Assembly (NCBI GenBank): GCA_944326945.1
Contig: CALVFY010000001.1
Location: forward strand, 62,001 to 126,000
Length of the DNA: 64,000 nucleotides
Reading direction: 5' to 3'
Origin: an uncultured Rikenellaceae bacterium
GTDB lineage: Bacteria; Bacteroidota; Bacteroidia; Bacteroidales; Rikenellaceae
Numbering within the stretch: position 1 is the stretch's first letter; every line of letters begins with the position of its first letter. The translations under genes and the position numbers were made by a program. The notes under the pieces are model-generated. The model was not told the DNA's origin. It worked only from the letters and a program-made list of their open reading frames with translations, and made no database searches. Positions 1,568 through 46,754 of this stretch are shown one piece after another.

Positions 1568-1659
1568 AAAAAAATAAGGAAATCCTGAGTGGCAGAACGC
1601 CTGACCCCTGATTTCCTCTACTAACCTAAAACTACTAACCTAAAATGAACCTTAAAACT
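1568..1659 (-). ncRNA. Short RNA unit, copy A (three-copy family)
   Basis: Predicted transcript of about 92 nt, read leftwards. Its promoter is complete: on the minus strand TATCTTTG at 1666-1673 and TTTG at 1694-1697, 20 nt apart. The RNA contains TTTTAGGTTAGTAG twice in tandem, then a hairpin with the apical sequence GGCGUUCUGCC (GGC/GCC stem, GUUCU loop). It ends in an outer stem (AGGAAAUC with GAUUUCCU) followed by a U-rich run at 1568-1574. Copies B and C share the same layout. The transcript could be a free sRNA or a leader of tdk with a terminator. Confidence 0.7.
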
Positions 1660-1665
1660 TCACTG

Positions 1666-1697
1666 CAAAGATAAGGTAAGTTTGGATATTATGCAAA
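1666..1697 (-). promoter_or_regulatory. Promoter of RNA unit A
   Basis: Bacteroidota housekeeping promoter on the minus strand: -33 TTTG at 1694-1697, 20-nt spacer, -7 TATCTTTG at 1666-1673. Transcription should start near 1659-1662. Confidence 0.75.
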
Positions 1698-1793
1698 TTT
1701 TTCAAGAAATTTTTAAAGATATTTAATATCTTGAAGTTTTTGTCGGACCTGAGGTCTGGAAAAAGACGTTGGTGGGGACAAAAAGGTATAGTA

Positions 1794-1889
1794 TAAAAAC
1801 AAAGCAAGGAAATGCGGAGTGGCAGAACGCCTCTTCTCCGATTTCCTCTACTAACCTAAAACTACTAACCTGAAATGAACCTTAAAACT
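1794..1889 (-). ncRNA. Short RNA unit, copy B (three-copy family)
   Basis: Second copy, in tandem with copy A and in the same orientation. The 5' half (the two TTTTAGGTTAGTAG-type repeats, one with a C for T change) is nearly identical. In the terminator stem, copy B has CGGAG facing CUCCG where copies A and C have other bases, while the apical GGCGUUCUGCC is unchanged, so pairing rather than sequence is kept. The 3' end runs into U-rich sequence at 1794-1803. Confidence 0.7.
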
Positions 1890-1895
1890 TCGTTG

Positions 1896-1927
1896 CAAAG
1901 ATAAGGTCGATTTTTGGCATTTCCAAA
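1896..1927 (-). promoter_or_regulatory. Promoter of RNA unit B
   Basis: Minus-strand TTTG at 1924-1927, 20-nt spacer, TATCTTTG at 1896-1903. Same geometry as the promoters of copies A and C although the spacer sequences differ. Confidence 0.75.
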
Positions 1928-2029
1928 TTTTTCTTAAAAAAATATTAAATATTTTGAAAAATTACTCCGTAATGGCGTCTCAGGAATGGAAAAACTACTT
2001 TTAATGATGTTTTTATAGAAAGTAATAGC

Positions 2030-2037
2030 TACCTTTA
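2030..2037 (+). promoter_or_regulatory. Probable -7 box for esterase gene
   Basis: TACCTTTA matches TAnnTTTG at 7 of 8 positions and lies 48 nt before the ATG at 2085. No good TTTG is seen 20 nt upstream, so the assignment is tentative. Confidence 0.4.
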
Positions 2038-2084
2038 CAAGGCTTTAACGATTTGTGGTGGAATCCAACTTAAAAAATAATAAC

Positions 2085-2912
2085 ATGAAACGAATCTTAT
2101 GTATGTTGGCGGTGCTTTTATTGACGGGTACCGCTCTGTTTGCTCAACGGGTTGATACGGTGATGGTGAAAAGCGCTGCAATGAAAACTGCGTTTAAATG
2201 TGTGGTTGTGTTGCCGGCCGGGTATGAGCAGAATACACAACAACGTTATCCGGTGGTTTATCTGTTACATGGTTATGGGGGGCGTTACGATAGCTGGATC
2301 AAGTTGAAACCGGAATTACCTGAAATCGCTTCGCAGCGGGGGATGATTTTTGTCTGCCCCGATGGGAAGAACAGTTGGTATTGGGATAGTCCGGTGAATC
2401 CGTCCAGCCGTTTCGAAACTTATGTGGCGAAGGAGATTCCTGCGTATATAGATAAGGCTTATCGTACAAAAGCCGATCCGAAAGGGAGAGCGATAGCCGG
2501 ATTGAGCATGGGTGGGCATGGCGCACTGTGGTTGGCATTCCGGCATCCCGATGTGTTTGGTGCTTGCGGTTCGATGAGCGGAGGCGTGGATATCCGGCCT
2601 TTCCCGGAGAATTGGTGTATGGCTGAGAGTTTGGGCAGCTATTATGAGAATCCTAAAGTATGGGATGATTATACGGTGATGGGGCAATTGTATCGGGTGA
2701 AGCCGGGTTCGCTGGCCATTATCGTGGATTGCGGAACGGAAGATTTCTTTTATGAAGTGAATCAGGAGCTTCATCGGCAGATGCTCTACCGGAATATCAA
2801 GCATGATTTCATTACGAGACCCGGTGCTCACAATTCGAAGTATTGGAAAAAGACTGTAATATATCAATTACTTTTCTTTGACGATTTCTTCAAGGGCGGT
2901 AAGGCTCTGTAA
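2085..2912 (+). CDS. Secreted esterase, CE1/esterase-D-like alpha/beta hydrolase
   Basis: A 275-residue exported serine esterase. A signal peptide (MKRILCMLAVLLLTGTALFA) ends near Gln21; I chose the ATG at 2085 for this reason, although the frame runs back to a GTG at 2055. The oxyanion segment is HGYGG (62-66) and the nucleophile is Ser141 in GLSMGG. The acid is probably in DCGTEDFF and the histidine in PGAHNSKYW. This is the putative-esterase family that includes feruloyl and acetyl esterases; the substrate cannot be read from sequence. It converges on the PL8 lyase gene and shares a terminator with it. Confidence 0.88.
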   Translation: MKRILCMLAVLLLTGTALFAQRVDTVMVKSAAMKTAFKCVVVLPAGYEQNTQQRYPVVYLLHGYGGRYDSWIKLKPELPEIASQRGMIFVCPDGKNSWYWDSPVNPSSRFETYVAKEIPAYIDKAYRTKADPKGRAIAGLSMGGHGALWLAFRHPDVFGACGSMSGGVDIRPFPENWCMAESLGSYYENPKVWDDYTVMGQLYRVKPGSLAIIVDCGTEDFFYEVNQELHRQMLYRNIKHDFITRPGAHNSKYWKKTVIYQLLFFDDFFKGGKAL

Positions 2913-2929
2913 CAATCATAAATAATAGG

Positions 2930-2973
2930 TCCGAAAAAAGGGTGCTCAAACAACAGGGCACCCTTTTTTCGGA
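2930..2973. terminator. Bidirectional terminator between esterase and PL8 genes
   Basis: 16-bp perfect stem (2930-2945 with 2958-2973) around a 12-nt loop. A-rich and T-rich stretches within the arms give U-runs on either strand. It lies between convergent stop codons at 2912 and 3013. Confidence 0.85.
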
Positions 2974-3012
2974 TGAGAACGACTTGTCGGAAATTGTTTT
3001 TCCTGTTTCAGA

Positions 3013-5043: not shown

Positions 5044-5122
5044 AATTCGAGGGAATGTTAGTTTTTCTTTGGTGTAAAGATACGGAAAAAACGAAAGACT
5101 CAAATTATGGAAATATGACGGA

Positions 5123-6274: not shown

Positions 6275-6374
6275 TTTCCTCGCGCCGATTTAATAATGAC
6301 ATTTTATATGTGTTATGAAAGATAGGTAAAACGAGGAGTCTGTTTTCTTCAAAATGCGTCTATCGATTACGAAA

Positions 6375-6411
6375 ATACGACAAAAGCATCCTTAGGATGC
6401 TTTTGTCGTAT
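6375..6411. terminator. Terminator after SusD-like gene
   Basis: 17-bp perfect stem with a 3-nt loop (arms 6375-6391 and 6395-6411), 9 nt past the stop of the leftward SusD gene. It separates the SusC/SusD pair from the hydrolase-PL8 pair. Confidence 0.85.
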
Positions 6412-6419: not shown

Positions 6420-8243
6420 TTAATATCCAGGAGTTTGACACATGTCTGGATTCGGATTGGATTCGAATTCTGAAGTGGGAATCGGCATGGCATAATTGGT
6501 GTCTTTCCATACGATGTTCGTTTTTGCAGCTCCCGGTCCGGAGACGGTTTTATAGTAATCGGCCTCTTTTTTCCCTAATCTCAGACGGCGGACGTCTTCC
6601 CACCAACGCATCTCGCCGAAGAATTCGGCCCAGCGTTCGTATAACAGAGGATCGTTGGCCAGGTGATCGTCGGCCGGGGCTTTGGTCCGATCGGAGAGAG
6701 ACGTGTAGTCGACCGGCGAAGGTGAATCGGGGGGATAATTATAGGCGCGACGTTTCACCTTGTTGACATATTCGAGGGCGGTTTGCGGATCGGAATCCTT
6801 CAGCAGTTCGGCATACATCAGGTAGAGATCCGGAAGCCGAATGAAATAGATGTTGTATCCGGCCACGTTACGTGTGGCATCTGCCAGGTGTCCGTCGAGA
6901 TAATTGTATTTGCGCACAGGCCAGCCGTAGAAAGTTTCCGGATCGTTTCCTGTGGTAGGACTCATTTCCCACCATTTGCCGAACTCTACCTGAGCCACTT
7001 TCCGGTAGGCATTTACACCGTCGATAGTCATCTGAACCTCATCCACGAAGGGCTGCAGGGCGCAGACGAACAACCGGGGATCGGGACCGTTTTCCTCGCG
7101 TCCGAGTTGATCGCGATGACGCTGCTGTTGTCGCATGTATTCCTCCGAAAGGTAGTAGCGAATAGAACCGTCGGCCCGAGCTTCCGATTTCAGGACGTTT
7201 TTCGACAGAGGGGTGGGGTCGGTATATCCGAATCGAGCCAGATTTCGGTCGTGCATATATTGGTTGCCGTAAGACATGGCGGTTCGAGTGCTGTCCGGAG
7301 CAATGCAGAATGGCGGATAGTAGAGTGAAAGTGTCGTACCTGTGTTGGGATTTCCATAGGCTGCTCCATTGGTGGGGTCGGCTTTGTTTCCCATTTCGTA
7401 GAACGATTCACTGTTGTATTCGTATTCGTCGTAGCCGTTGAACATCATGCGATAGCGGTCGAATGACTCCAGGGTCTTGCCGCTGTTGAGGATGCAATCT
7501 TCCAGATAGGTTTTGGCTTTGTCGGTCTGGCCGGCGAAGAAACAGGCTTTGGCAAGAAAGGCTTTGGCTGCCCAGATCGTTACCCGATGGTTGTCGGTTT
7601 GGGTAAGCAATCCCACGGCTTTGTCCAGATCGTCGATGATAGCCTGGTAACAGTCGCCGGTTTTTTCTCTGCCGACATACATCTCTTCCAGGGTTTTGGG
7701 AACTTTGCGGATGATCGGAATACCGACTCCATCCATCTGTGGCTGACCGTAGAGGGAGAGCATGTGCCACCAGTAGAATGCCCGGAAAAAGAGACATTCA
7801 CCTTCGTAATTATTCAATTGTTCGGTTTCGGAAGAGGGGGCTGTTTGACGGTAGGTGGCAATCTCCTCCATGGCGGTATTCGAATAATAGACGCCCATGC
7901 TCAGAGCAGTCCAGGGATCGGTGACTTTAGAATTTCCGGCTTTGACCTCACCGGCGAGAATATCCACCCACGATTGGTCTTCGTGGAACTGGAGGTCAAT
8001 GGTGTGGTCCAGGCAATACATGACATAGCCGGCCCAGTAATTGCCCAGAAAGAGCCAGTGATGTTGGGCTCCGTAGACCGAATTGACCAACAGGTCTATA
8101 TGGGCCAATTTGGTGGGGAAGTTGCCCGGAGAGAGCGAATTCGGGTCATTCAGATCGAGAAACGCATCGCCGCAGGCAGACATCAGAAGGGCGCTTCCGC
8201 AGGCTGCGATTGAAAGTCGGAGTTTTTTGAAATATGTTTTCAT
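6420..8243 (-). CDS. SusD/RagB-like outer-membrane lipoprotein
   Basis: 607-residue nutrient-binding lipoprotein that caps a SusC transporter. The lipobox LLMSAC is at the end of the signal peptide, followed by the usual AFLDLNDPNS start of the TPR-rich SusD fold. C-terminal features include RLPDLYLMYAELLKD and RAYNYPPDSP, then ERWAEFFGEMRWWEDVRRLR, all typical of SusD. It follows its SusC partner by 20 nt. No glycosidase is attached to this pair, so the ligand is unknown; a terminator follows directly. Confidence 0.93.
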   Translation of the reverse strand: MKTYFKKLRLSIAACGSALLMSACGDAFLDLNDPNSLSPGNFPTKLAHIDLLVNSVYGAQHHWLFLGNYWAGYVMYCLDHTIDLQFHEDQSWVDILAGEVKAGNSKVTDPWTALSMGVYYSNTAMEEIATYRQTAPSSETEQLNNYEGECLFFRAFYWWHMLSLYGQPQMDGVGIPIIRKVPKTLEEMYVGREKTGDCYQAIIDDLDKAVGLLTQTDNHRVTIWAAKAFLAKACFFAGQTDKAKTYLEDCILNSGKTLESFDRYRMMFNGYDEYEYNSESFYEMGNKADPTNGAAYGNPNTGTTLSLYYPPFCIAPDSTRTAMSYGNQYMHDRNLARFGYTDPTPLSKNVLKSEARADGSIRYYLSEEYMRQQQRHRDQLGREENGPDPRLFVCALQPFVDEVQMTIDGVNAYRKVAQVEFGKWWEMSPTTGNDPETFYGWPVRKYNYLDGHLADATRNVAGYNIYFIRLPDLYLMYAELLKDSDPQTALEYVNKVKRRAYNYPPDSPSPVDYTSLSDRTKAPADDHLANDPLLYERWAEFFGEMRWWEDVRRLRLGKKEADYYKTVSGPGAAKTNIVWKDTNYAMPIPTSEFESNPNPDMCQTPGY

Positions 8244-8263: not shown

Positions 8264-11200
8264 TTAAAAGTTTATATCTACTCCGAAAGAGATCATTCGG
8301 GTTTGCGGATAGGTACTGTTGTAGTAGACTCCGTAAGCGGTTTTCGTCGTGGTGGAGAATTCGGGGTCAAGACCCGAGAATTTGGTGAAAGTAAGCAGGT
8401 TGCTGCCTGTTACGTAGACGCGTAACCGGTCTATTTTCAATTTTTGAGTCCATTTTTGGGGAAGGGTATATCCGAGGGTTACGTTTTTCAGCTTCAGATA
8501 CGAACCGTCCTCGATGAAATAATCGGAATAACGTTGGTAATTGTAGTTGGGGTCCTTCACGGGGGCGTTACCGTTTTCTTTGTCGATAGCCATGATACGA
8601 GGGCGATCGGTCAATCCGTTCCCGAGGAAATACGAGGCACGGAAGACTTCCGTGGAGGTGTTTGCTCCCTGCTGGACGCTTTGTGTGAAGGATTTTGCCA
8701 GATTCATCACGTCGTTTCCGGCGATGCCCGTAAAGTCGGCGGTGAAGTCTATGCCCTTGTATTCCAGTGAGATGTTGAATCCGTATTGGATGGTGGGCCA
8801 TGGGTTGCCGATGAAAGTGCAATCTTCGTCGTTGATGGTTCCGTCGCCGTTCAGATCGACATATTTCAAGTCGCCGACTCCGGTCAGACGTTGGTGATAG
8901 TAGTCGTGACCATGGGCCTGGGCATTCCGGTTGAGGGCGTCGATCTCTTCCTGGGAGGTGATCATACCATCGGTTTTCAGTCCCCAGAATTGGCTGATAG
9001 GTTGGCCGTTGACCGTCTTACAGGGGCTGAGTCCCGTGTTGGGCCAACCTCCTCCGCCGTAGATGTAGGCAGTGGGGAGTCCTAAATCGACCACCTGATT
9101 CCGGTTTTGGGAAATGTTGCCGCTGATGGCATAGTTGAAGTAACCGATATTGTTACGATAGGAGACCAACAGTTCCCATCCTTTGTTGTCGATGCGACCG
9201 ATGTTGACAGGCATCGTACTCATGGTGGTCAGCGAAGGCATCTGCGTGATCCCCGAAGAGTTGGGTGCCGACATGGCGTAGATCATGTTTTTGGTGATTC
9301 TTTGGTAGTAGTCCACCGAAAGTGAGAGTCTGTGCTGGAAGAATTCGAGATCGAGTCCGACATCGGTAGTGTAGATCGATTCCCATTTGATATTTTCGTT
9401 GACGACTTTGATATTGTTGTAGCCGCCCACGGAGGAAATGCCGTCGAACGAATGGTTTGTTACATTCTGGAAAGACATCAGATAGGAGTAGTTGTTCAGA
9501 GCCTGGTCGTTACCCAGGATACCCCAACTGAAACGGGGCTTGATCAGAGAGATCCAATTTTGATCCCAGTTTTTGAAGAAAGGCTCTTCGGTGACTTTCC
9601 ATCCTACGGAGACCGAAGGGAAGATACCCCAACGGTTCTTGGGACCGAATTTTGGCGAACCGTCGCGACGAACATTGACCGTCAGCAGGTAACGATTGTC
9701 GAAAGAGTAGTTCAGACGGCTGAACTGAGAAAGGAAACGGTCTTCGCTCAGTGCACCGGAAGCTGTTTTGTTTGAATTGGTGGAGAGGGCGAACGAGAGC
9801 GGATTGTCTACCGGGAAGTCGGTGGCGGTAGCACTCAGATCGGCATATTGTGAACTTTTGGCTTCATATCCCACCATGATTCTGAAATTATGTTTCTTGG
9901 CGAATATTTTGCCGTAGGAGAGTGTGGCGGTGAAAGTGTATTGCTCTGCGTAATTCAGCCCTTTGTTGTAGCTGTCTTTCGAGGGCGACCGACCCAGATC
10001 ATTCTCCTCGATATAGTAGTCGTCATATCCGCCACCTAATTGTGCCGCTCCGGTAACATTCAGTTTCAGTCCTTTCAGAATTTCCCAGTCGACATACAAA
10101 TCGGCATTGGTCATCAGATCGGAGACCTTTTGGTGGTTCTTTTCGATATTGGCCACCGGGTTTCCGCCCGAAAAATCGACTCCTTCCGGAACGGAGGCAA
10201 AGGAACCGTCCGGATTATAGACGCTCATATAGGGAATCGTGATCCAGGGATAGGATTCCGTGTAGGGATTACTGCGCAGGCGGGCCAAATAAATGCGTGT
10301 TCCTACGGTGAAATTCTTGCTCATTTTGTAATCCACATTCAATCGGGCAGAGATCCGTTCCCAGTAATTGTTTTTCTGGATTCCGTTTTCCCTTTCGTAT
10401 GCTCCGGAGAGGTAGTAACGGAATTTTTCGCTACCTCCGGTGATTGAGAGATTGTAACTCTGTTCTATTCCGTCGCGGTAGATCTCGTCGTACCAGTTGG
10501 TGTCGGGCAGTTTGGAGGGATCGCTCCAGATCGGATAATTTTCTCCGAGAGCCTGTTTGACCCGAATGTAGTCGGCTGTACCCAACAGGTCGTACCGATC
10601 CGTCATGCGGCGTATGCCGACTCTGCTGGTAAAGGCCACTTGGGCTTTTGAATTATAGTTTCCTTTTTTCGTGGTGATCAATACCACGCCACCAGCCGCT
10701 CTTGATCCGTAGATAGCTGCGGCACTGGCATCTTTGATGACCTCGATCGAGGCAATGTCATTCAGATTATAGTTGCTGTTGTTGTCCACGGCGACACCGT
10801 CGATGACGAACAGAGGATTCAGCCCGTTGATCGATCCCACACCGCGGATTACGATATCCGAACTGCTTCCCGGTTTTCCGTCGGTTTTGGAGACCATAAC
10901 ACCTGCCACTTTTCCTTGCAGGGCTTCGGCCACCGAACGTGCCGGGAGTTCTTTGATGTCATCGGCCTTGATCGATGCGATCGAACCCGTAAGATCGGAT
11001 TTTTCTTGAGTCCCATAGCCCACTACGATCACATCGTCCACCTGTTCGGATTCTTCTTCCAACACGATTTTCAGATGGTCTCGATTCAGTACGGGTATTT
11101 TCATGCTTTTGTAGCCGAGGAAGGAGACGAGCAGGGTGGAGCGGGCAGGTACTGTGAACCGGAAGGTGCCTTTTTCGTCGGAGAGTGTGCCGATCGAGGT

Positions 11201-11428
11201 GGAGTCGCTCACGACGATGGCGGCGCCGATGAGTGGATTGCCCTGGGCGTCCGTGACAGTTCCTGTGACGGTGTGTCGGGTCGGTTGGTTTTCTTTTGTC
11301 GAGTTAGATTCGGGGGTAATTCCGTCTGCCGGTGCGGGCAGTGACAGGCAGGCCAGCAGGAGCAGGACGAGTCCTGCCGTCCGTCGTGTCTGTCTGCCGA
11401 AAGAGATGAAAGTCGCTTCTTTTCTCAT
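8264..11428 (-). CDS. SusC/RagA-like TonB-dependent transporter
   Basis: 1054-residue outer-membrane importer. After a signal peptide comes a carboxypeptidase-regulatory-like domain (VTGTVTDAQGNPLIGAAI, about residues 53-130), a TonB box region (DDVIVVGYGTQEKSDLTGS), the plug domain (VIRGVGSINGLNPLFVIDG) and a C-terminal 22-strand barrel ending in an aromatic residue. No STN domain is present and no ECF sigma/anti-sigma pair is near, so classical trans-envelope signalling is unlikely. It pairs with the SusD gene downstream. Confidence 0.94.
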   Translation of the reverse strand: MRKEATFISFGRQTRRTAGLVLLLLACLSLPAPADGITPESNSTKENQPTRHTVTGTVTDAQGNPLIGAAIVVSDSTSIGTLSDEKGTFRFTVPARSTLLVSFLGYKSMKIPVLNRDHLKIVLEEESEQVDDVIVVGYGTQEKSDLTGSIASIKADDIKELPARSVAEALQGKVAGVMVSKTDGKPGSSSDIVIRGVGSINGLNPLFVIDGVAVDNNSNYNLNDIASIEVIKDASAAAIYGSRAAGGVVLITTKKGNYNSKAQVAFTSRVGIRRMTDRYDLLGTADYIRVKQALGENYPIWSDPSKLPDTNWYDEIYRDGIEQSYNLSITGGSEKFRYYLSGAYERENGIQKNNYWERISARLNVDYKMSKNFTVGTRIYLARLRSNPYTESYPWITIPYMSVYNPDGSFASVPEGVDFSGGNPVANIEKNHQKVSDLMTNADLYVDWEILKGLKLNVTGAAQLGGGYDDYYIEENDLGRSPSKDSYNKGLNYAEQYTFTATLSYGKIFAKKHNFRIMVGYEAKSSQYADLSATATDFPVDNPLSFALSTNSNKTASGALSEDRFLSQFSRLNYSFDNRYLLTVNVRRDGSPKFGPKNRWGIFPSVSVGWKVTEEPFFKNWDQNWISLIKPRFSWGILGNDQALNNYSYLMSFQNVTNHSFDGISSVGGYNNIKVVNENIKWESIYTTDVGLDLEFFQHRLSLSVDYYQRITKNMIYAMSAPNSSGITQMPSLTTMSTMPVNIGRIDNKGWELLVSYRNNIGYFNYAISGNISQNRNQVVDLGLPTAYIYGGGGWPNTGLSPCKTVNGQPISQFWGLKTDGMITSQEEIDALNRNAQAHGHDYYHQRLTGVGDLKYVDLNGDGTINDEDCTFIGNPWPTIQYGFNISLEYKGIDFTADFTGIAGNDVMNLAKSFTQSVQQGANTSTEVFRASYFLGNGLTDRPRIMAIDKENGNAPVKDPNYNYQRYSDYFIEDGSYLKLKNVTLGYTLPQKWTQKLKIDRLRVYVTGSNLLTFTKFSGLDPEFSTTTKTAYGVYYNSTYPQTRMISFGVDINF

Positions 11429-11910
11429 AAGGATCTGTTTGGATTTTTGAGTAGTGAGAAAAGGTAAGCAAGAGGAGTGCCAAAGAATGAACGGAGTATA
11501 AGATGTTGATTTTTAGTGGGAAATGTGGGTTCGGGGGTGGGGTGAGTGGTAGAATTTTTCCACACTTCTGTGGAAAAATTCTACATGCGGGGCCACGGAT
11601 GTCCGGGCCGGGCGACGGAGAAGAGCCACAGGCTGAGGGCGGTACCCGTGTAGATGACTTCGGCCGTCCTTTCTTCCGGTTGACCGACGAAACTTTTCAC
11701 CGGTAAGTTTATCTTGGACTATCCGAGGGCATAACTTCTTCTTGTCCAAGGCCGCACTGTCTTTTACTGGAGTACCATGCCGTCGTCGAAAATGACGGGT
11801 ATGGGTTTCTGCTTTTGCCGGGGGATTGCGAGGAGGGAAAGTCGCTATATGGTCAGAAAAAAGTGTTTGGCAGAAAGGTCATTGTGGCAGGACGTTTGAA
11901 AGAAATCGAG
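11429..11910. other. 482-bp intergenic region upstream of SusC
   Basis: No convincing gene. It contains one 16-bp perfect hairpin (11549-11584). ORFs on either strand here lack family resemblance. I found no exact TAnnTTTG promoter for the leftward SusC; the nearest is ATTCTTTG (minus strand) near 11482-11491, which is poor. The rest could be the 3' untranslated part of the long operon ending at 11911 plus the SusC control region. Confidence 0.5.
11549..11584. repeat. 16-bp inverted repeat with 4-nt loop
   Basis: Arms 11549-11564 and 11569-11584 are perfectly complementary, loop CTTC. It may be the terminator of the leftward operon that ends at 11911, but it lies 330 nt beyond the last stop codon and lacks a long T-run. 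A regulatory hairpin in the SusC upstream region is the alternative. Confidence 0.7.
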
Positions 11911-23299: not shown

Positions 23300-24877
23300 T
23301 TAATATCCGTAATTTTGTTTCCAACGCCCCTCCATCATTAGCAGCTGATTTTCGGGGAATGGATAAATGTGATGTATTTTGGGGTCGAAAGTGCGGCCGG
23401 GCCAAACCTGATTGCCCGTGAAGCCGTGTGCCGGCTTTGCATAAGTAGCTTGTGCGTCGCCCCAGCGGATCAGATCTCCGTGTCTGTCGGCAAATTCTGC
23501 GGCGAGCTCACAACGGCGTTCGTGTTTCAGATCTTCGAGAGAATAGGAACTTTTGGGTTCGAGTCCGGCCCGTTTGCGGATGGCATCGAGGTCTTCTTTG
23601 GCACTCTCGCCCAGCATGATTTTTGCTTCAGCCCGTATCAGAAGCACTTCGGCATAGCGGATAATGGGTACGTTCAGTGTCGTGGAGGGGGAATCTCCGT
23701 TGGGGTTGAGTTCAGAATAACCGATCGCGAACGGGTCCATGAATTTATTGAATTGCATTTTGGTCGTCGAAGACGATTTCGTGCCCTCTGCATCGTACAC
23801 TCGTTCTTCCCCGAAATAGGTGAAAGTATCGCCCGGAGCGAGAATGGTGACGGCTCTGCGCTGGTCACCGGGTTCGAATTCGTCATACAACTCTTTGGTA
23901 GGTTGGAAATACCCGAATCCGTTGTATTTGCCCCAACCTTTGTTTTCGAGCATCATGCCGGGAAGCATGCAGGGCCTACTTTGTGCGGTGGCATAATAGA
24001 CGCCTCCTACGGCGGAGAAGATGTATTCCGGCCCGTAGTTATTCTTCACCAGGAACACATCCTTGTATGTCGGGGCCAAATCATGACATTTTTTGCCACC
24101 GTATTGGGCTTCGATTACAAGGGTGGCGTATCTGACAGCTTCTTCGAAACTGGCTCTGGCACCTGCCTCATCTCCGGTATTGTGACAATTCCAGGCTTTG
24201 TAGAGGCATACCTTGGAGGCAACGGCCCATGCGGCTGTTTTTGTGGGACGTCCGTAGTCTTCCGCGGACAATTCTCCGAAATAGGGCAGGCGTTTTGCCG
24301 CTTCGTTGAGATCAGCGATGATATAATCGTAGTTTACGTTGACGTTTTTTGCCCGGGGAACTTCCAGATTCATCTGATTTTCCCGGTCAGGAATCGGGAA
24401 TCCCTGTCCTTCGACCATATCGGCATATCTTCTGGCAAGTTCAAAATGCATGAATGCTCCCAAAAAGTAGGCCTGTCCGATGTAAAAGTTATGCAGCCAT
24501 TCGTTGCTCATAGCGATTTTGTTTTCACTGCGGATGATCGCATTGGCCCGTGCCAGCAACCGGATGTGATAAAACCATTGCTTGGGTACTTCGGAGGTGT
24601 AGGTGAGTACGAAATTGCGAGTGTTGTCGGCATTTCCGTTCGAACGTCCGGGAATCATGTCGTCCGAAGCGCAAATCCACCACATAGGCCCCCTGGAGTA
24701 GCCCCAGTCGTCCCAGAGTCTGTAGTATAATCCGTTTACGGCCATTTTCAGATCGCTTTCTGTTTCCAAAAACGTACCTTCTCCGGGAGCTCCGTAAGGT
24801 TTCAGGTCAAGTATGGATTCGCTGCACGAGCAAAGCAGCAGGCAGGATGATATAACTGATAAAATAACCTTATTCAT
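23300..24877 (-). CDS. SusD/RagB-like outer-membrane lipoprotein
   Basis: 525 residues. Lipobox LLCSC, then the SusD start (SILDLKPYGAPGEGTFL) with the TPR scaffold; late motifs are IRYAEVLLIRAEAKIMLG, IRKRAGL and ERRCELAAEFADRHGDLIRW. It starts 13 nt before the end of its spacer to SusC, the usual tight SusC-SusD coupling. Ligand should be the substrate of the GH92/GDPD enzymes encoded downstream. Confidence 0.94.
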   Translation of the reverse strand: MNKVILSVISSCLLLCSCSESILDLKPYGAPGEGTFLETESDLKMAVNGLYYRLWDDWGYSRGPMWWICASDDMIPGRSNGNADNTRNFVLTYTSEVPKQWFYHIRLLARANAIIRSENKIAMSNEWLHNFYIGQAYFLGAFMHFELARRYADMVEGQGFPIPDRENQMNLEVPRAKNVNVNYDYIIADLNEAAKRLPYFGELSAEDYGRPTKTAAWAVASKVCLYKAWNCHNTGDEAGARASFEEAVRYATLVIEAQYGGKKCHDLAPTYKDVFLVKNNYGPEYIFSAVGGVYYATAQSRPCMLPGMMLENKGWGKYNGFGYFQPTKELYDEFEPGDQRRAVTILAPGDTFTYFGEERVYDAEGTKSSSTTKMQFNKFMDPFAIGYSELNPNGDSPSTTLNVPIIRYAEVLLIRAEAKIMLGESAKEDLDAIRKRAGLEPKSSYSLEDLKHERRCELAAEFADRHGDLIRWGDAQATYAKPAHGFTGNQVWPGRTFDPKIHHIYPFPENQLLMMEGRWKQNYGY

Positions 24878-24889: not shown

Positions 24890-27800
24890 TTAAAATGTTA
24901 GATTGACGCCGAAGGTGAATGTTTTTGCGACGGGATAGACTCCGTCGTCAACTCCTTTGTTGCTGAATCCAACTTCGGGATCCAGCCCGCTGTATCCTGT
25001 GATTGTCAGTAGGTTTTGACAGGAGAACATGAGCCGGACATTTTCGATCGAAAGATGTTTCAGCCATTTGGACGGAAGCTTGTAGGCTAAGGACAGGTTG
25101 CGTAATTTGATGAAGTCTCCGCTTTCTGTGAAATAGTCCGAAACGCGGAAATTGTTGTTCATGCCCCCGGTTGTCAGACGCGGAATCGTGCAGTTCCGGC
25201 TTCCTTCGGGGTCTTCAGGATTCCATGCGTTCAGTATCTCTTTCGAGGCATTGAAGCCGGTGCCGGTATTGCTGTGCAGGTATATTTTCGAATTGTTGTA
25301 AATGGTCACGCCTGCGACTCCACTCCAAAACATGTTGAATTCAAAGTTCTTGTAAGCCAGGTTTACATTCAGTCCGAATGTGTATTTCGGGAAGGGATTG
25401 CCCAGATAAATCCGGTCGTCGTTGGAGAACTGTCCGTCGTCGTTCCGGTCGACAAATTTCACTTCACCCGGGCGGGCGTTGGGCTGCAGTATGGTTCCGT
25501 CGGACGAGGTATGGAGGAGTACTTCTTCATAGGACTGGAACAGCCCGTCTGTTTCATATCCCCAGAATGTGTAAATAGGATATCCTACTTTAGACCATAT
25601 CTTGTCGTTCACGGAGACGTAAGTCAGGTTGTCTACATATTTGACGAATGTATTTTTCAATGTGGCGAAGTTGGCATTGATATCGTAATGGAAATCACCC
25701 ACACTGTTTTTGTAGGCGACCATTAATTCGACACCGGTATTCTTTACCTGTCCGAAGTTGATCTCCGGTCCGCCGTCGTAGCCGGTAATCTGGCTTACGT
25801 CTTTGGTCGTAATCATGTCGTGGTTCATCTTTCGGAAATAATCCACACTGATCGACAAGTTGCTTTTGAATAGATTCATGTCCAGGCCGACATTGAACTG
25901 CTCCGAAGTTTCCCAGCGTAAATCCGGATTTGACGGACGGTTGTAGACATAGCCGTATTGCAGTTGTTGGGACTCTCCCAAGGAGGCCGTCGTCTGGGAC
26001 ATCAGTGCATTGAAGCCGTATCGGCCTAAGCCGGACAGGTTGCCCAGTTTACCCCAACTGACCCTTAATTTGGCATAATCGATCAGTTTGATGTTTTTCA
26101 TGAATTTTTCTTCGGATAGAACCCAGCCTCCAGATATGGAGGGATAGAGTCTCCAGCGGTTTTTCCCGATCAGTTTGGACGAACCGTCTCGGCGCAGGGT
26201 GAAACTGAACAGATATTTTGATGCGTAATTGTAGTTCAGACGTCCTACATAAGACAGCATCCGTTCCTGATCGAAACTGTCGGTCGGTCGGGGATATTCG
26301 TCCATGATGGCGTTGGCATACATCCGGTAATGCTCCTCTTCGGAGACGAAACCGTCGGCAGAGACGGAAAAGGCGTAGTTCTCATCGGCCTGGTAGGTAT
26401 ATCCCAAAAGTGCCGAAATGCTGTGTTGATTGAAGGTCCGGTCATATGTCAGAAGTTGCTCTGCCAATAGGCGGGTCGCCCTTCCATAACGAGATTTCAA
26501 TGTATTGGTGAATGTCTTTTTTCCTGGTTCGGGAACCATGAATGTGAAGGCCCTGGAGGGGTTTTGCAAATTCTCGTAGCTGAAATTGGACCGGAATTTA
26601 AGACCTTCGGTAAAAAGTTTGACTTCCACATAGGGATTGATCATCGTGCGGACATAGCTGTTGTTGTCGTCTCGTCGAAGTAAAGTCGCTACAGGGTTTT
26701 TCAGGTCGCCGAAGAAACTGGCGTATTCTTCGGGTGCCACACCGCCGAAACTTCCGTCGTCGTTGTAAACCCGGGCGCTCGGAGGGTAGGCGAGTGCCTG
26801 GCGGAGGACTCCTCCGATCCCTCCGACCGGAGCTCCGAGCGAATTGGTGTAGGCGAGTGAAAATGTCTCTCCTATTTTCAGCCAGGGAGTGATGTCGAAG
26901 TCCGAATTGACCCGAAAGGAGTAGGAGGTAGAATGGGAGTTGAGGATGATTCCTTCGTCGTTCCGATACTGGCCGCCCACATAGACCCTATGTTTCGCCC
27001 CTCCGGTCGAGATGCTTACATTGTAGTCCTGCACGATGCCGGTCTGAAACAGTTCATTGACCCAGTTGGTTCGGTTGATCTGACCGTCCCAGTAAAAATC
27101 TTCATGGGCCGGGTTAAAGGCGCTCGGCAGCTCTTTCCCGTCTCCCAGATACGAACGGCGCTGCATTTCCAGATATTCGGAGGCGGATAGTGGTTCGTAT
27201 AGTTTGCCGTGGGTGCGGATTCCTACCTTCGCGTCGAATTCTACCCGTATTTTGTCGCGGTTTCCTTTTTTCGTTGTTACCAGAATGACTCCTCCCGATG
27301 CTCTTGCTCCGTAAATGGAGGCCGAAGCATCTTTTAGGACGGAAATGGACTCTATGTCGTTGCTGTTTACGAAAGCCCCGTTATAGACGACTCCGTCCAC
27401 GACCCAGAGAGGACTTTCCGAGTTGAGTGAACCCATACCGCGGATTCTGACGAAGGGTTCACTGTTGGGGCTTCCTCCGTTGTTCAATACGGTGATACCG
27501 GGAGCCATTCCTTGGAGCAATTCGGCATTGCTGCCCACGGACATGGTATTCGTTTTCGATGGCTTGACATCCACTACGGCACCTGTCAGAGACTTTTTTG
27601 TTTGGGTACCATAACCTACGACCACCAGTTGATCTATGTCTACGGCATCGGGTTTCATGGAGAAATTGATGACGGTTTGGGCATTTACCGTGATTTCCTG
27701 AGTGATATAGCCCATGTAGGAACAAACCAGTATCGCATGCTTGTCGGGAACGGAGATACTGTATTCGCCTTTTATATCAGAGGATATTCCTGTCGTACTA

Positions 27801-28024
27801 CCTTTGATCACAATGCTCGCGCCGATGATGGGCGAACCTTTTTCGTCGGTTACTTTGCCGGATATGGGAATCGCCGATGCTGTCGTGGCTGAGGACACGG
27901 ACGATGCTGCGACATGGAGCGGAAAGTTTAACAAGGCTATGAACAGGAGGAAAAATGCAGTCGCTGTTACGAGATGGCCTTTCTTTTTCTTGCTCGAAAA
28001 CGATTGAAGAATTGTTTCTTCCAT
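24890..28024 (-). CDS. SusC/RagA-like TonB-dependent transporter
   Basis: 1044 residues from ATG 28024; the frame continues to 28072. Order of parts: signal/transmembrane start (MEETILQSF, then a hydrophobic stretch), regulatory-like domain (ISGKVTDEKGSPIIGASIVI), TonB box and plug (DQLVVVGYGTQTKKSLTGA, RIRGMGSLNSESPLWVVDG), and barrel. First gene of a ten-gene leftward operon that runs to 11911 with gaps of 12-60 nt. No promoter of the standard type is evident upstream; a 15-bp palindrome and a long inverted repeat are present there instead. Confidence 0.94.
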   Translation of the reverse strand: MEETILQSFSSKKKKGHLVTATAFFLLFIALLNFPLHVAASSVSSATTASAIPISGKVTDEKGSPIIGASIVIKGSTTGISSDIKGEYSISVPDKHAILVCSYMGYITQEITVNAQTVINFSMKPDAVDIDQLVVVGYGTQTKKSLTGAVVDVKPSKTNTMSVGSNAELLQGMAPGITVLNNGGSPNSEPFVRIRGMGSLNSESPLWVVDGVVYNGAFVNSNDIESISVLKDASASIYGARASGGVILVTTKKGNRDKIRVEFDAKVGIRTHGKLYEPLSASEYLEMQRRSYLGDGKELPSAFNPAHEDFYWDGQINRTNWVNELFQTGIVQDYNVSISTGGAKHRVYVGGQYRNDEGIILNSHSTSYSFRVNSDFDITPWLKIGETFSLAYTNSLGAPVGGIGGVLRQALAYPPSARVYNDDGSFGGVAPEEYASFFGDLKNPVATLLRRDDNNSYVRTMINPYVEVKLFTEGLKFRSNFSYENLQNPSRAFTFMVPEPGKKTFTNTLKSRYGRATRLLAEQLLTYDRTFNQHSISALLGYTYQADENYAFSVSADGFVSEEEHYRMYANAIMDEYPRPTDSFDQERMLSYVGRLNYNYASKYLFSFTLRRDGSSKLIGKNRWRLYPSISGGWVLSEEKFMKNIKLIDYAKLRVSWGKLGNLSGLGRYGFNALMSQTTASLGESQQLQYGYVYNRPSNPDLRWETSEQFNVGLDMNLFKSNLSISVDYFRKMNHDMITTKDVSQITGYDGGPEINFGQVKNTGVELMVAYKNSVGDFHYDINANFATLKNTFVKYVDNLTYVSVNDKIWSKVGYPIYTFWGYETDGLFQSYEEVLLHTSSDGTILQPNARPGEVKFVDRNDDGQFSNDDRIYLGNPFPKYTFGLNVNLAYKNFEFNMFWSGVAGVTIYNNSKIYLHSNTGTGFNASKEILNAWNPEDPEGSRNCTIPRLTTGGMNNNFRVSDYFTESGDFIKLRNLSLAYKLPSKWLKHLSIENVRLMFSCQNLLTITGYSGLDPEVGFSNKGVDDGVYPVAKTFTFGVNLTF

Positions 28025-28143
28025 AATAAATGCATGTTGAGTGAATGTCTTCGCGAAAGTGGACATATCCACATGGTTAGTAAAAATGGGACGATCGAGA
28101 TGTCAACATATTTGTATTTTTAACAACTGTTTGACTGGGTAGT

Positions 28144-43586: not shown

Positions 43587-43600
43587 GGCAAGGGGGTGAT

Positions 43601-45457
43601 TTAATATTTGTTGGGATTTTGGGCGCTGTTCAGATAAGAAGGCGAGTCAATGGGCATTTCATGGATGTGAGATACATAAAACTTGTTCATCAATTCCTGA
43701 GCCCAAGGTCCATAAGTGAATGAACTGCTATGATTGTATCCCATCACGTGACCCAATTCGTGGAACATGATCTCGCAGGAGTAGGTGTCGGAATAGTGTT
43801 GGAACCAGGCCTGTTGATAGGCTCCGAATACGCTGCCTCCTCCCAGACCGATGACCCCGTTCCCGGGATAGACCAATCCTACACGTAGCGTACGTGGTTG
43901 GCGCATCTGTTTTAATACCACTTCGGCAGTTACCTTGTCGTCTACTCCGCCGTTTCCGTAGAGCCGGTCGGCATTCTCCCGGAGAATTTCTTCGTGTTCG
44001 GGCATGTCGATCATGTAGGTGAAGTTCAGAAAGAGGGCTACTGCTTCGCGGCAGTGTACGGGACGAATTCCCATCCAGTTGCCTGTGGGTCCTCCGTTCG
44101 GGAGTTCCGGATTGCCTCCGTACAGGGCGAAACTGATGTTCCAACCGTGTTCGATGGCCTCGAGTTTCTCCCAGAACGGGTCCTCCGATGAGGCACGGAA
44201 TTCGACTCCATTCAATTCCGAGACCGAGAGAGGTCCTATTTCCAGAATCCGTCCCGATTCCGTACGGCAAAAAGTTTTTCTTAAAACCAGAGGAGATTCT
44301 CCATAAAAATCGGCGAACGCGGGAATACAGTCGAAATAGGCCAGATCGAAGAATTCTCCACCGCTTATGGATGGAATTTTGGCTTGGATCAGTACTTCGT
44401 GCAGGTCGCGCGGAGAGTAGAATCGGACATGAAGTTTGCCCTCATCTGTGAAAGAAACCTGGAGAGGTTTGGAGGTGTTGAACGAACGTTGTGATTCGTC
44501 CGTGTAGATGTTGTGATGCTCGTCGTCTTGGAGGATGTAGGTCAATCCGGTTTTGTCGAACGTTTGTTCCGTAATGAAGGCCGTGCCCGATTGGTCATCG
44601 GGATGTACGACCGGAATATGAATGGTCTCGATACGATTGGGTGCCACTTCTTCCAGAGAAAAGTCGTATGTCCGGCGGATCGTGTGGCCCCGGTAGTTGC
44701 GCGAAGTCAATTCGATTTCACCTTGAATGGATCCCTCTTCGACGGTTGGAGGAAACAGGCAGGAGGTTCCCGAATTCAGATTCATGGCGAAAGAGGTGCC
44801 ATCGCTTTCTCCTGTAAAGGAACCGCTGCCCAGAAGCCGGGTATGAAAGCGGGGAGAATGCAGGGTGACATTTTTCGTGAGCAGGGCCGTTTCGACATAC
44901 AGATTATTGAATGCGAAAGAGAAATCCGTGCGGCCGATAATCCGATGTTGAATCAACTCGTCTGAGAGAACCGCTGAGATTTCGTTGCCCGAGGGTCCCG
45001 CCTGGGATATTACCGAAAACGGAGTTTGGGAATAGAAATATTCTGCTTTGAGAGGTCTTCGCAGATCTGAGGGAAATGTCAGCCACTCTTGGTCGATATG
45101 TTGCAGCGACCGGATCGATACTCCGTCGTCGGTCGGATTGCCTTTGATTCCCAGGATCAACAGACGATAGCTCCCTTCGCGAAGCCCTTCGATCCGTATT
45201 TGCGATGTGGCCGGGTCGAAAAGTCCTTTCAAGCCGCTGACTGCGACACCCGATTCGTCTACGACACAAAACTCCACCCGATCGTAATCGGCTTCGTGAG
45301 AGGTGTTGGACCGGGAGATTACCTCTTCATAATCATTGTATTGCAGTTTAAATGCGATTCCTTGAGTCGAGGGGGAGGGGATTTCCATCCATTCGTCGTT
45401 CCGACAAGCTGTCAATAGAACGATGCAACCCAATAAAACATACACTATTCTATTCAT
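43601..45457 (-). CDS. Lipoprotein with fimbrillin-like N-terminus and metzincin zinc-protease motif
   Basis: 618 residues from ATG 45457; the leader ends at LLTAC, a lipobox. Residues about 30-280 resemble Mfa2/FimB-type anchor proteins (VEFCVVDESGVAVSGLKG, GSYRLLILGIKGN). Near the C-terminus HELGHVMGYNH (about 566-576) is an exact metzincin signature HExxHxxGxxH. A methionine 28 residues later (HIHEMPID) could be the Met-turn. A membrane-anchored protease is thus likely. It is the first gene of a three-gene operon with two fimbrillin-like genes, whose proteins might be its targets or partners. Family assignment beyond the zinc motif is uncertain. Confidence 0.78.
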   Translation of the reverse strand: MNRIVYVLLGCIVLLTACRNDEWMEIPSPSTQGIAFKLQYNDYEEVISRSNTSHEADYDRVEFCVVDESGVAVSGLKGLFDPATSQIRIEGLREGSYRLLILGIKGNPTDDGVSIRSLQHIDQEWLTFPSDLRRPLKAEYFYSQTPFSVISQAGPSGNEISAVLSDELIQHRIIGRTDFSFAFNNLYVETALLTKNVTLHSPRFHTRLLGSGSFTGESDGTSFAMNLNSGTSCLFPPTVEEGSIQGEIELTSRNYRGHTIRRTYDFSLEEVAPNRIETIHIPVVHPDDQSGTAFITEQTFDKTGLTYILQDDEHHNIYTDESQRSFNTSKPLQVSFTDEGKLHVRFYSPRDLHEVLIQAKIPSISGGEFFDLAYFDCIPAFADFYGESPLVLRKTFCRTESGRILEIGPLSVSELNGVEFRASSEDPFWEKLEAIEHGWNISFALYGGNPELPNGGPTGNWMGIRPVHCREAVALFLNFTYMIDMPEHEEILRENADRLYGNGGVDDKVTAEVVLKQMRQPRTLRVGLVYPGNGVIGLGGGSVFGAYQQAWFQHYSDTYSCEIMFHELGHVMGYNHSSSFTYGPWAQELMNKFYVSHIHEMPIDSPSYLNSAQNPNKY

Positions 45458-45547
45458 TTGTCTTTTGTATTTATTATATTTGTGTTTCATAATCTGTTTT
45501 TGTCGGGATTTGTGCATAGTCTGAGGGTCCCGAATTTCAATCGGGCG

Positions 45548-45555
45548 CAAAAATA
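45548..45555 (-). promoter_or_regulatory. -7 box of the metzincin-fimbrillin operon
   Basis: Minus-strand TATTTTTG gives a start near 45544. No TTTG -33 box is present, but a 16-bp palindrome is centred about 41 bp upstream of that start. Confidence 0.5.
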
Positions 45556-45576
45556 CAATTGTGCATAATGAGTTGG

Positions 45577-45592
45577 CGTAACATTTGTTACG
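45577..45592. promoter_or_regulatory. 16-bp palindrome, candidate Crp/Fnr-family site
   Basis: CGTAACA-TT-TGTTACG, two perfect 7-bp arms around 2 bp. It lies between the divergent regulator and metzincin operon, centred near -41 for the latter, the position used by Crp-type class II activators. Confidence 0.6.
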
Positions 45593-45624
45593 GACTATGA
45601 TAAGAATTTATTAATCAGTGGGCT

Positions 45625-46236
45625 ATGGATTGCGAAATTTATGATATGCCTCTTTTTAAGGGGTGTGACCGGCTATTGTTGGACGAGGTGCTTGGAAAAT
45701 CCTCCAGCCGGTTTGCCTCTTATCGTAAAGGTGATTTTATTGCCATGCAGAACAGTGTCTGCCGGTCGTTATATCTGTTGTGTGAAGGGAGCGTCTATGC
45801 TCAGATGATCAGTGAAGAGGGCCGGGAATTTACACTCGACACGCTTTCCGCTCCGGATGTGCTTGCATCGGCCTTTCTTTTTGGAACAGAGAATGTGCTG
45901 CCTGTTACGATTGTGGCCAATTCGGATTGTGAGTTGTGGATTGTCAGCAAGGAGAGTATACAGTTGCTTATTGAACAGGATAAGGCAGTCCTCCGTAATT
46001 TTTTAGCTGTATTGTCAGATCACAGTCTGTTTTTGAGTCGCAAACTGGAGCAATTCGCTTTGCAGACCTTATCTTCTCGGTTACTTGGTTTTTTGGAAAA
46101 GGATGGAGCTATACAGAATCTGCAGGAGACGGCATTTATTCTTGGGGTGACGAGGCCGTCGTTGTCGCGGGTGATCTCGCAGTTGGTTCGCCAGGGCATG
46201 ATTCGGAAAACGGAAGCAGGGTATGTGTTAGCCTGA
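45625..46236 (+). CDS. Crp/Fnr-family transcription regulator
   Basis: 203 residues. N-terminal cyclic-nucleotide-binding-like barrel (YRKGDFIAMQNSVCRSLYLL, EGSVYAQMISEEGREFTLD), a long dimer helix, and a C-terminal winged helix (TLSSRLLGFL, TAFILGVTRPSLSRVISQL). No cysteine set of the Fnr iron-sulfur type is visible, and the cAMP-contact residues of Crp are not obvious. It is divergent from the metzincin-fimbrillin operon with a palindrome between them, so it probably controls that operon and itself. Its signal is unknown. Confidence 0.9.
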   Translation: MDCEIYDMPLFKGCDRLLLDEVLGKSSSRFASYRKGDFIAMQNSVCRSLYLLCEGSVYAQMISEEGREFTLDTLSAPDVLASAFLFGTENVLPVTIVANSDCELWIVSKESIQLLIEQDKAVLRNFLAVLSDHSLFLSRKLEQFALQTLSSRLLGFLEKDGAIQNLQETAFILGVTRPSLSRVISQLVRQGMIRKTEAGYVLA

Positions 46237-46251
46237 GGTTATGGAAAAGCA

Positions 46252-46283
46252 AAACCCCGTTGAACGCAAGTTCAACGGGGTTT
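46252..46283. terminator. Bidirectional terminator between regulator and tRNA-Leu
   Basis: 14-bp perfect stem (46252-46265 with 46270-46283), GCAA loop, 15 nt past the regulator stop and just beyond the tRNA 3' end. Confidence 0.85.
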
Positions 46284-46288
46284 CTCGG

Positions 46289-46370
46289 TGCCCAGGACAG
46301 GAATCGAACCTGCACGCCTTGCGGCACACGCACCTGAAACGTGCGCGTCTACCAGTTCCGCCACCTGGGC
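46289..46370 (-). tRNA. tRNA-Leu (CAG)
   Basis: 82-nt class II tRNA with acceptor arms GCCCAGG/CCTGGGC, long variable arm, T-arm GGTTCGATTCC and anticodon loop TTCAGGT. The CCA end is not encoded. Promoter with -7 TATATTTG at 46399-46406 on the minus strand. Confidence 0.93.
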
Positions 46371-46398
46371 ATGGGTGCCTTTTCTTCAAAAAGGTGTG

Positions 46399-46431
46399 CA
46401 AATATAAAGAAAATATGTCGTATCATGCAAA
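46399..46431 (-). promoter_or_regulatory. Promoter of tRNA-Leu (CAG)
   Basis: Minus strand TATATTTG at 46399-46406 with TTTG at 46428-46431, 21 nt spacing. Confidence 0.6.
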
Positions 46432-46500
46432 TTTTTTTGAAAAATAATGTGGTTTCTTGTCGAAAATATAGTGATGTTCAACAAGAATGGAATAAAAGAA

Positions 46501-46534
46501 AAAAACCTGTGACAAAAAATGTCGCAGGTTTTTT
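46501..46534. terminator. Terminator after tRNA-Leu (GAG)
   Basis: Stem of about 13 bp with one G-T pair around an A5 loop (46501-46514 with 46520-46534), A-run and T-run on its sides, directly after the tRNA 3' end. Confidence 0.75.
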
Positions 46535-46538
46535 CTTG

Positions 46539-46624
46539 TGCCCAAGATGAGACTCGAACTCACACGGACTAAAGCGTCCACTACCCCCTCAAAGTAGCGT
46601 GTCTACCAATTTCACCACCTGGGC
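46539..46624 (-). tRNA. tRNA-Leu (GAG)
   Basis: 86-nt class II tRNA with acceptor arms GCCCAGG/CTTGGGC, long variable arm, T-arm GAGTTCGAGTCTC and anticodon loop TTGAGGG. The CCA end is not encoded. A -7-like AACCTTTG lies at 46632-46639. Confidence 0.93.
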
Positions 46625-46662
46625 TTATGTCGCAAAGGTTCGGTTCTGTCGTTGTCCGTATT

Positions 46663-46754
46663 AAAAAAACAAGGAAACCATGAGCGGCAGAACGCCGGAC
46701 TCCTGATTTCCTCTACTAACCTAAAACTACTAACCTAAAATGAACCTTAAAACT
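46663..46754 (-). ncRNA. Short RNA unit, copy C (three-copy family)
   Basis: Same build as copies A and B, 45 kb away and in the same orientation: two TTTTAGGTTAGTAG repeats, hairpin with CGGC-GUUCU-GCCG, outer stem AGGAAAUCA pairing UGGUUUCCU (with a G-U pair), and a run of seven U at 46663-46669. It lies between the rplY promoter region and tRNA-Leu (GAG), 38 nt before the tRNA. Confidence 0.7.

Follow-up and report, generated by a model that had tools for sequence, protein, structure and literature searches.

A 64,000-nucleotide stretch of DNA from an uncultured Rikenellaceae bacterium (contig CALVFY010000001.1, positions 62,001 to 126,000; here called the window) carries three near-identical minus-strand copies, A, B and C, of a sequence with the layout of a small RNA (sRNA) gene. 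It is very likely that all three are real sRNA genes. They probably encode one trans-acting RNA of ~95 nucleotides (nt), the Rikenellaceae counterpart of FopS, with a seed that has co-diverged with its targets. FopS is a set of 14 paralogous sRNAs described in Bacteroides thetaiotaomicron (PMC11697453). The gene-like layout, the promoters, the conservation in the family, the variation of the two hairpin arms in step with each other and the statistics linking the seed to susC leaders were computed here; transcription of the A/B/C sRNA, its pairing and the resulting repression are predictions from sequence. In the proposed mechanism, a separate promoter of the Bacteroidota type would drive each copy, and the 5' half of the RNA, GAAGUUUUAAGGUUCAUUUUAGGUUAGUAGUUUUAGGUUAGUAG, would serve as a seed that is roughly antisense to the translation-start region of susC, pairing with a ...ACUAACCUAAA... 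leader followed by AUG. Pairing would block ribosome entry on the mRNAs of susC-like glycan transporters, whose genes typically come first in polysaccharide utilisation operons. The 3' hairpin and U-run would end transcription and protect the RNA. We lean towards the view that this RNA serves mainly to control susC translation by antisense pairing.

What marks A, B and C as genes? First, every copy is preceded by the promoter TTTG-N20-TATCTTTG, which has exactly these three occurrences in the window and none in 100 shuffles. Second, each copy has a tandem TTTTAGGTTAGTAG repeat, with a single change in the first unit of B (TTTCAGG), and GGCGTTCTGCC is likewise found three times, once per copy, where 0.05 occurrences are expected. 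Third, each copy folds into a weakly structured 5' half, a hairpin and a U-rich tail, with a calculated unpaired fraction of 0.53–0.64 for the seed vs 0.21–0.27 for the hairpin; compared with shuffles, the fold has a z of −3.3 for A and −2.8 for C. The 5' half is nearly the same in the three copies and the hairpin differs. A simple terminator scan did not call the three hairpins on the minus strand, probably because their stems are interrupted. Each copy is taken to run from GAAG, four bases past the −7 box, through the end of the U-run (Table 1). An earlier reading of the window from its letters alone (the sequence-only reading) had described three minus-strand copies with ends within 2 nt of these, each with a promoter of 20-nt spacing and a tandem repeat, and in all of this it was right. 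With a promoter of the Bacteroidota kind and a terminator hairpin apiece, the copies look like independent RNA genes.

Table 1. Positions of the predicted sRNA genes, their parts and their candidate targets in the window, with examples of the type II form (see text) from other loci.
Feature	Position	Strand	Remarks
sRNA gene copy A	1568..1661	-	predicted 5' end GAAG, 3' end in U-run
sRNA gene copy B	1795..1891	-	GAAG to end of U-run
sRNA gene copy C	46663..46756	-	upstream of tRNA-Leu (46538-46624)
Promoter of copy A, TTTG-N20-TATCTTTG	1666..1697	-	Bacteroidota primary sigma type
Promoter of copy B, TTTG-N20-TATCTTTG	1896..1927	-	
Promoter of copy C, TTTG-N20-TATCTTTG	46761..46792	-	
Copy A anti-start-codon element AAGGUUCAU	1645..1653	-	complementary to AUGAACCUU; from sequence
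Copy A tandem UUUUAGGUUAGUAG	1618..1645	-	main predicted seed against susC leaders
Copy B tandem seed repeat	1848..1875	-	first unit with one change
Copy C tandem seed repeat	46713..46740	-	
Copy A terminator hairpin, GGAAA...UUUCC	1578..1616	-	tip GGCGUUCUGCC; folding, arm pairing
Copy B terminator hairpin	1808..1846	-	lower stem CGGAG/CUCCG; folding, arm pairing
Copy C terminator hairpin	46673..46711	-	folding, arm pairing
Predicted target: leader and start codon of susC-like gene 8264-11428 (L116)	11427..11477	-	-28.8 kcal/mol
Predicted target (weaker): leader of susC-like gene 24890-28066 (L112)	28055..28100	-	-22.6 kcal/mol
Type II examples (~95 nt)	L223:922-1018, L245:2050-2146, L210:2242-2336		about 70 other loci

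The genome (2.55 Mb in 65 contigs) has no strong match other than A, B and C; a fourth match spans 20 nt at E = 0.9 and is chance-like. Compared with phages and plasmids by BLASTN, copy A gave short matches only, with E ≥1, among the best 20 of 48 phage records and in all 8 plasmid records. Coding of a small protein was considered and rejected: in every copy, all three sense frames meet a stop within the seed and have no ATG there, and the only ATG in any copy, within C's hairpin, opens a frame of 6 codons. A and B lie one after the other, flanked by a thymidine kinase gene and an esterase gene. Could the copies be cis-acting leaders, or by-products, of the genes downstream of them, thymidine kinase for A and B and tRNA-Leu for C? 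Among 157 loci examined, many with a flank of 1.5 kb only, a thymidine kinase is near copies in 7, from three genera, and copies lie upstream of tRNA-Leu in 13. However, the same RNA also stands beside unrelated neighbors (tdk, tRNA-Leu, tRNA-Glu and others), each copy is terminated by its own hairpin and U-run, and a separate TATCTTTG box (1487–1494) lies between copy A and an in-frame ATG (1463) ahead of the thymidine kinase domain (an earlier in-frame ATG, at 1499, is an alternative candidate start). We regard a cis-acting leader or by-product as quite improbable.

Relatives of the three copies are found in many Rikenellaceae. Matches at E ≤0.01 occur in 42 of 61 Rikenellaceae genomes, a few of them just 20–25 nt long, and weak matches occur in 2 of 40 other genomes searched. 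A scan of the GTDB genome collection gave at least 118 stretches, and the 80 matches listed are all from Alistipes, Tidjanibacter or Rikenellaceae. The upstream 25 nt include TAnnTTTG in 163 of 165 distinct homologues, 4–5 nt ahead of GAAG; an upstream TTTG is spaced at exactly 20 nt in 80 and at 19–21 nt in 92. The family breadth and the shared −7 box agree with the suggestion, made from the window alone, of a family of short RNAs that bring their own promoters and terminators. Close groups of two or more homologues are present in 17 loci besides the window, mostly 220–620 bp apart. Being multicopy and short with inverted repeats, the copies could also be taken for a spreading repetitive element, akin to a miniature inverted-repeat transposable element or a repetitive extragenic palindrome, with no function as RNA. 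That explanation is very improbable, given that relatives have only 1–3 matches per genome, that two of the positions are conserved across genera, that the same −7 box recurs in 163 of the 165 homologues and that pairing of the hairpin is arm-specific.

Where does the conservation lie? The peak is GAAGTTTTAAGGTTCATTT(T)AGGTTAGTAGTTTTAGGTT, and in 48 aligned sequences the 5' half is invariant and the hairpin varies. The sequence-only reading had placed the invariance in the hairpin. A hairpin is indeed present in all copies, but its supposedly invariant GGCGUUCUGCC is confined to the window copies and their closest relatives, and that reading missed the 5' half, the carrier of the conservation and the likely carrier of function. 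Its proposal that the hairpin structure is under selection went further than three copies alone could prove by covariation, and has since found support in an arm-swap test. In 50 distinct hairpins, pairing between a hairpin's own arms averages −8.43 kcal/mol vs −6.09 kcal/mol for swapped arms (standard deviation [sd] 0.27, lowest −6.67; 200 shuffles). Because own arms pair far better than swapped arms, selection appears to act on the hairpin stem. This test replaced RNAalifold, which did not find the terminator hairpin in an alignment of the form that ends in a plain terminator (type I), because the arms were misaligned.

There is a second form of the RNA. Many Alistipes-like loci have this promoter and seed joined to a different 3' domain (type II), ..GAGG..ATCGG.AGGTTG[P2]CTAAGAC[P3 with GGTGCTC]GTCGAATACCTCCGAT..CCTC, often followed by a U-run. 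Its marks are the invariant GGTGCTC region and the CTAAGAC and GTCGAATACC joints, and it folds as a three-way junction. In an alignment of 47 sequences with 25 pairs, pairing holds in 97.0% of cells, compared with 86.2% in shuffles (sd 0.6), and 15 pairs have changed on both sides. The covariation score is 0.418 vs 0.210 for the shuffled control, which relatedness inflates, and at most 0.129 for slid alignments. The type II model matches 11 of 15 sources outside its building set (10 at E <1e-4, and L171 at 0.011) and misses L169, L247, L005 and the window. An order-wide search with it matched 0 of 295 genomes, a result of little weight because the search had no positive control genome. Rfam, run on five type II loci, gave only tRNAs at the cut-off and no low-scoring same-strand match over the domain. 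Among the papers listed for sRNAs and structured RNAs of Alistipes or Rikenellaceae, no title or abstract start names the A/B/C family, and those listed for FopS in Alistipes amount to one unrelated review. The single mention of Alistipes in the available text of PMC8040213 is a 49-bp motif before L20; the supplement to that paper, with thousands of motifs, may list either RNA form without a name. Type II appears to be a new structured RNA form.

A classifier assigned the 165 distinct homologues to type II (73), type I (54), other (34) and short (4); an earlier, narrower rule gave 60, 54, 47 and 4, respectively. The GTDB scan gave a lower bound on the number of matches and its pattern fixes part of the seed, so these counts are not frequencies. 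The two types lie side by side in L206, L210, L218, L221 and L222. In L211:2203-2430, L174:7413-7640 and L231:905-1120, the closing CCTC lacks a U-run; a stretch resembling GGGGGTGGTTCCCC comes next, then another strong terminator, and the type II RNAs there may be longer. In a third variant, seen in L019, L189, L242, L256 and L279, the seed leads into a short hairpin (e.g., ACAGGG..CCCCTGT), then a linker rich in A and, set apart from the first hairpin, a strong terminator hairpin. As a tentative synthesis, which we would not yet favor, the 5' module may be portable: one promoter and seed would lead into a plain terminator in type I and into a ~95-nt junction RNA in type II, with no RRM-1 chaperone, and the seed would have co-diverged with susC leaders to give matched pairs in each Bacteroidales lineage. 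The type II domain might act as a ligand sensor or a protein-binding site and in this way control the seed.

Does the seed fit susC leaders? Duplex energies were calculated between the seed and positions −60 to +30 around the leftmost ATG. The susC set comprised 19 of the 29 susC-type matches in the genome, leaving out L126–L134 (fragments or weaker) and L135 (no long open frame). As background, 300 other genes were drawn from the window and from sampled stretches totalling 400 kb; shuffle comparisons used 150 of these 300 in the first test, 150 in the test on the sister genome and G022, and 120 in the cross-test. In other genomes, 16 of 36 susC-type matches were tested in the sister genome G001, 30 of 44 in G149 and 11 of 11 in G022; three G036 and G044 loci were unscored. 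For the window genome, the mean energy is −23.4 kcal/mol for the 19 susC leaders vs −17.9 kcal/mol for the 300 other genes (p = 4e-7). The difference is −5.53 for the real seed vs −2.35 (sd 0.81) for dinucleotide-shuffled seeds, none of 100 being as large. The repeat alone gives p = 8e-6 (1 of 100 shuffles as large) and the first 20 nt alone p = 0.056 (5 of 100). The FopS seed, applied to the same leaders, gives p = 0.42 (73 of 100). In the sister genome, 16 susC leaders have a z of −2.08 (p = 2e-4).

A cross-test points the same way. The window seed has a z of −1.39 on its own susC leaders, −1.85 on those of the sister (p = 3e-4) and −0.26 on other genes, and is weaker on the susC leaders of the FopS genome (z −0.64, p = 0.055). 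The FopS seed scores −1.65 on the latter (p = 1e-4), −0.03 on the window genome's leaders (p = 0.93), −0.95 on the sister's (p = 0.31) and −0.41 on other genes. Of the 35 susC leaders from the window genome and its sister, 10 contain AACCTAA, as do 4 of the 300 other genes; none of the 30 susC leaders from the FopS genome does. Within the same operons (33 of 35), susC has a z of −1.66 vs −0.72 for the next gene (paired p = 0.003), and AACCTAA occurs in 10 of 33 susC leaders vs 1 of 33 next genes. In statistical terms, the predicted seed fits the susC leaders of its own genome and of the sister better than it fits other genes (p about 1e-4). The window itself has two SusC/SusD-type operons, 8264–11428 with 6420–8243 and 24890–28066 with 23300–24877, the susD of the latter coming after the susC-like gene; the leaders of both are in the predicted target set, and that of L116 has the best duplex energy of the 19 tested in the genome.

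Several results weigh against FopS-like control of susC by these RNAs. Some concern the genes: the fold of copy B is not clearly better than its own shuffles (z −0.9), 71 of the 165 homologues lack a TTTG at 17–23 nt spacing, and the window genome has no detected RRM_1 protein, the type of protein that partners FopS. Others concern the targets. In the window genome, antisense sites of 16 nt with ≤3 mismatches are no more frequent than control sites (22, copies included, vs 29), and the complement of the 14-mer repeat, again with ≤3 mismatches, is rarer than its control (98 vs 384); the target test above used duplex energies with shuffled seeds. The more distant genome G022 gives a weak signal (11 susC, z −0.78, p = 0.053). 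AACCTAA was one of 8 motif sets tried, and ACTAACC alone is not enriched (2 of 35 vs 5 of 300, p = 0.16). Start codons were set at the leftmost ATG, and the background genes come from the window genome alone. The next genes in the operons lean the same way as susC (z −0.72), and a z below −1 is seen in 29% of sampled other genes as well as in 63% of the genome's susC leaders. Finally, several non-susC genes rank as high as susC leaders. The top non-susC predictions include, by eye, transporter-like and lipoprotein-like genes, as would be expected if the targets were outer-membrane or carbohydrate genes more broadly, with susC just one class. We consider such a broad target range possible but doubtful.

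FopS has a protein partner and is induced by bile salts. It binds the RRM protein RbpB and carries AAGGUUAA in its 5' part; it pairs near the start codon of susC mRNA, so that translation is blocked, and this control of glycan import is reported as conserved in Bacteroidaceae and tied to RbpB (PMC11697453). In the window genome (G000, 99.9% complete), PF00076 (RRM_1) has no match at E ≤1e-5; elsewhere in the same search, matches score 2e-18 or better. RRM_1 matches are present in 8 of the 37 Rikenellaceae checked, and 20 of the 26 checked Rikenellaceae with an sRNA match have none (the window genome included; several assemblies are incomplete). Because no RRM_1 protein was found in the genome, the FopS/RbpB circuit does not seem to have been copied whole there, and antagonism of the RbpB type is unlikely, barring a very divergent stand-in protein.

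The same data bear on whether the RNA is instead a protein sponge, its tandem UUAGGUUAGUAG units titrating an RNA-binding protein in the manner of CsrB and mRNA pairing being secondary. The binding of RbpB by FopS (PMC11697453) would fit such a role, as would the variation in repeat number among relatives, with two units in the window and more in L025, L027, L029 and L227. However, 155 of the 165 homologues have two units, in a set biased by the search pattern; RRM_1 had no match in those 20 of 26 genomes, the window genome among them, PF00076 being the only domain searched for; and a sponge would not predict the match between seed and leader. We judge this explanation improbable. In L027 (1450-1550) and L029, both Rikenellaceae, the seed units number more than two, seemingly via slippage, and L027 has a second partial copy downstream.

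How close is the A/B/C sRNA to FopS in sequence? Rfam at the gathering threshold finds only two tRNAs in the window, and permissive scans of the copies give just chance-like matches to unrelated families. The sequence-only reading recognized no named family and proposed an Rfam search; no Rfam family matches A, B or C, even at loose thresholds, but a published functional relative, FopS (PMC11697453; RF04319), had been overlooked. RF04319 (gathering threshold 56 bits) has no match at E ≤10 at the A/B region or in L001–L003, which hold all three copies, and none at E ≤1 in the whole genome under the stricter filters of Infernal. The relative L027 has a weak match (24.7 bits, E = 2.1). RF04319 is above its cut-off in 9 of 150 relatives, all from other families of the order, and sub-threshold matches at E ≤1 occur in 34 other Rikenellaceae genomes (best 32.5 bits). 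Four of these sub-threshold loci (L094, L098, L101 and L103) were rejected as candidates: they are sited elsewhere and none is an A/B/C-type sRNA, and three of them are not FopS genes, being the antisense strand of ...AUGAAAAA...-type gene starts. L101 has GGTTAGT ahead of a terminator. The window sRNA is not a member of RF04319 as modelled.

The two RNAs nevertheless follow the same logic in different letters. FopS-type sequences consist of GUGUUUUUCAUGGUAUUAGAUUUAAGGUUAA and a terminator, and their complement, UUAACCUUAAAUCUAAUACCAUGAAAAAC, has the shape of a leader plus start codon; the complement of the window seed contains CUACUAACCUAAAAUGAACC. FopS is marked by a conserved seed, R1'; the FopS-type seed, GUUUUUCAUGGUAUUAGAUUUAAGGUUAA (L077–L084, with small variants), differs from that of the window. 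L102, from another family of the order, consists of GAAGTTTTTCATAGTTTAAGTTTAGGTTAAGTAG and a hairpin and is weak with both models (19.6 bits with R2, 27.7 bits with RF04319); it is a possible intermediate between the FopS and window seeds. A model of the seed has strong matches in 3 of 295 genomes of the order, all Rikenellaceae, and weak matches (18–20 bits) in six other genomes of the order; of these six, by eye, L102/L375 are sRNA-like, L377 is possibly so, and the rest are chance-like except L378. Common descent of the window sRNA and FopS, judged from such resemblances, is plausible but not proven. In L378 (another family of the order, 18 bits), GTAGTTTTAGGTT precedes a terminator past the end of a gene; at the center of the locus, GGTTTAGGATAGTAGTTTTAGGTTGTGAGG stands directly ahead of this strong terminator and resembles the window seed. 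In L036 (G067:C78:74700-75600), from another family, a AGTTTTAGGTTAGT-like repeat run with a terminator lies just past an apparent gene end and is possibly a related RNA derived from a 3' untranslated region.

What would FopS-like control by these RNAs mean? First, if this reading is true, such control of glycan import would be older and more general than the Bacteroidaceae system, and independent of RbpB. Second, it would evolve through matched change of the sRNA and the target leader. Third, the Rikenellaceae counterpart would span Alistipes, Tidjanibacter and relatives, and type II adds a structured RNA with strong covariation to the seed family.

Among known systems, RNAs of the CsrB/RsmY type are protein sponges with a repeated short motif. 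The window sRNA is likewise a small RNA with a repeated short motif, but it has only two units and an mRNA-pairing signal, and no putative partner protein was identified. GibS of Bacteroides thetaiotaomicron, compared by description only, resembles it in having a 5' seed that pairs around the start codons of its targets, and differs in having a PM2 promoter and two seeds, R1 and R2, where the window copies have the canonical promoter (PMC7366714). The closest likeness is to FopS. Both RNAs are multicopy and of similar size, with a canonical promoter of the sigma-ABfr type (so named in PMC11697453 and PMC7366714); both have a single-stranded 5' seed and then a terminator hairpin, which on the window side is predicted; and both have CAU and AGGUUA elements in a seed antisense to the susC start region, which for the window sRNA is a predicted target. 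The window genome differs in having no detected RRM_1 protein and no RF04319 match, and its sRNA in having another seed sequence with a tandem 14-nt repeat and three copies (1–3 matches in relatives) in place of the 12–15 FopS paralogues. Lastly, relatives of the window sRNA, unlike FopS, carry the second, three-way-junction 3' domain.

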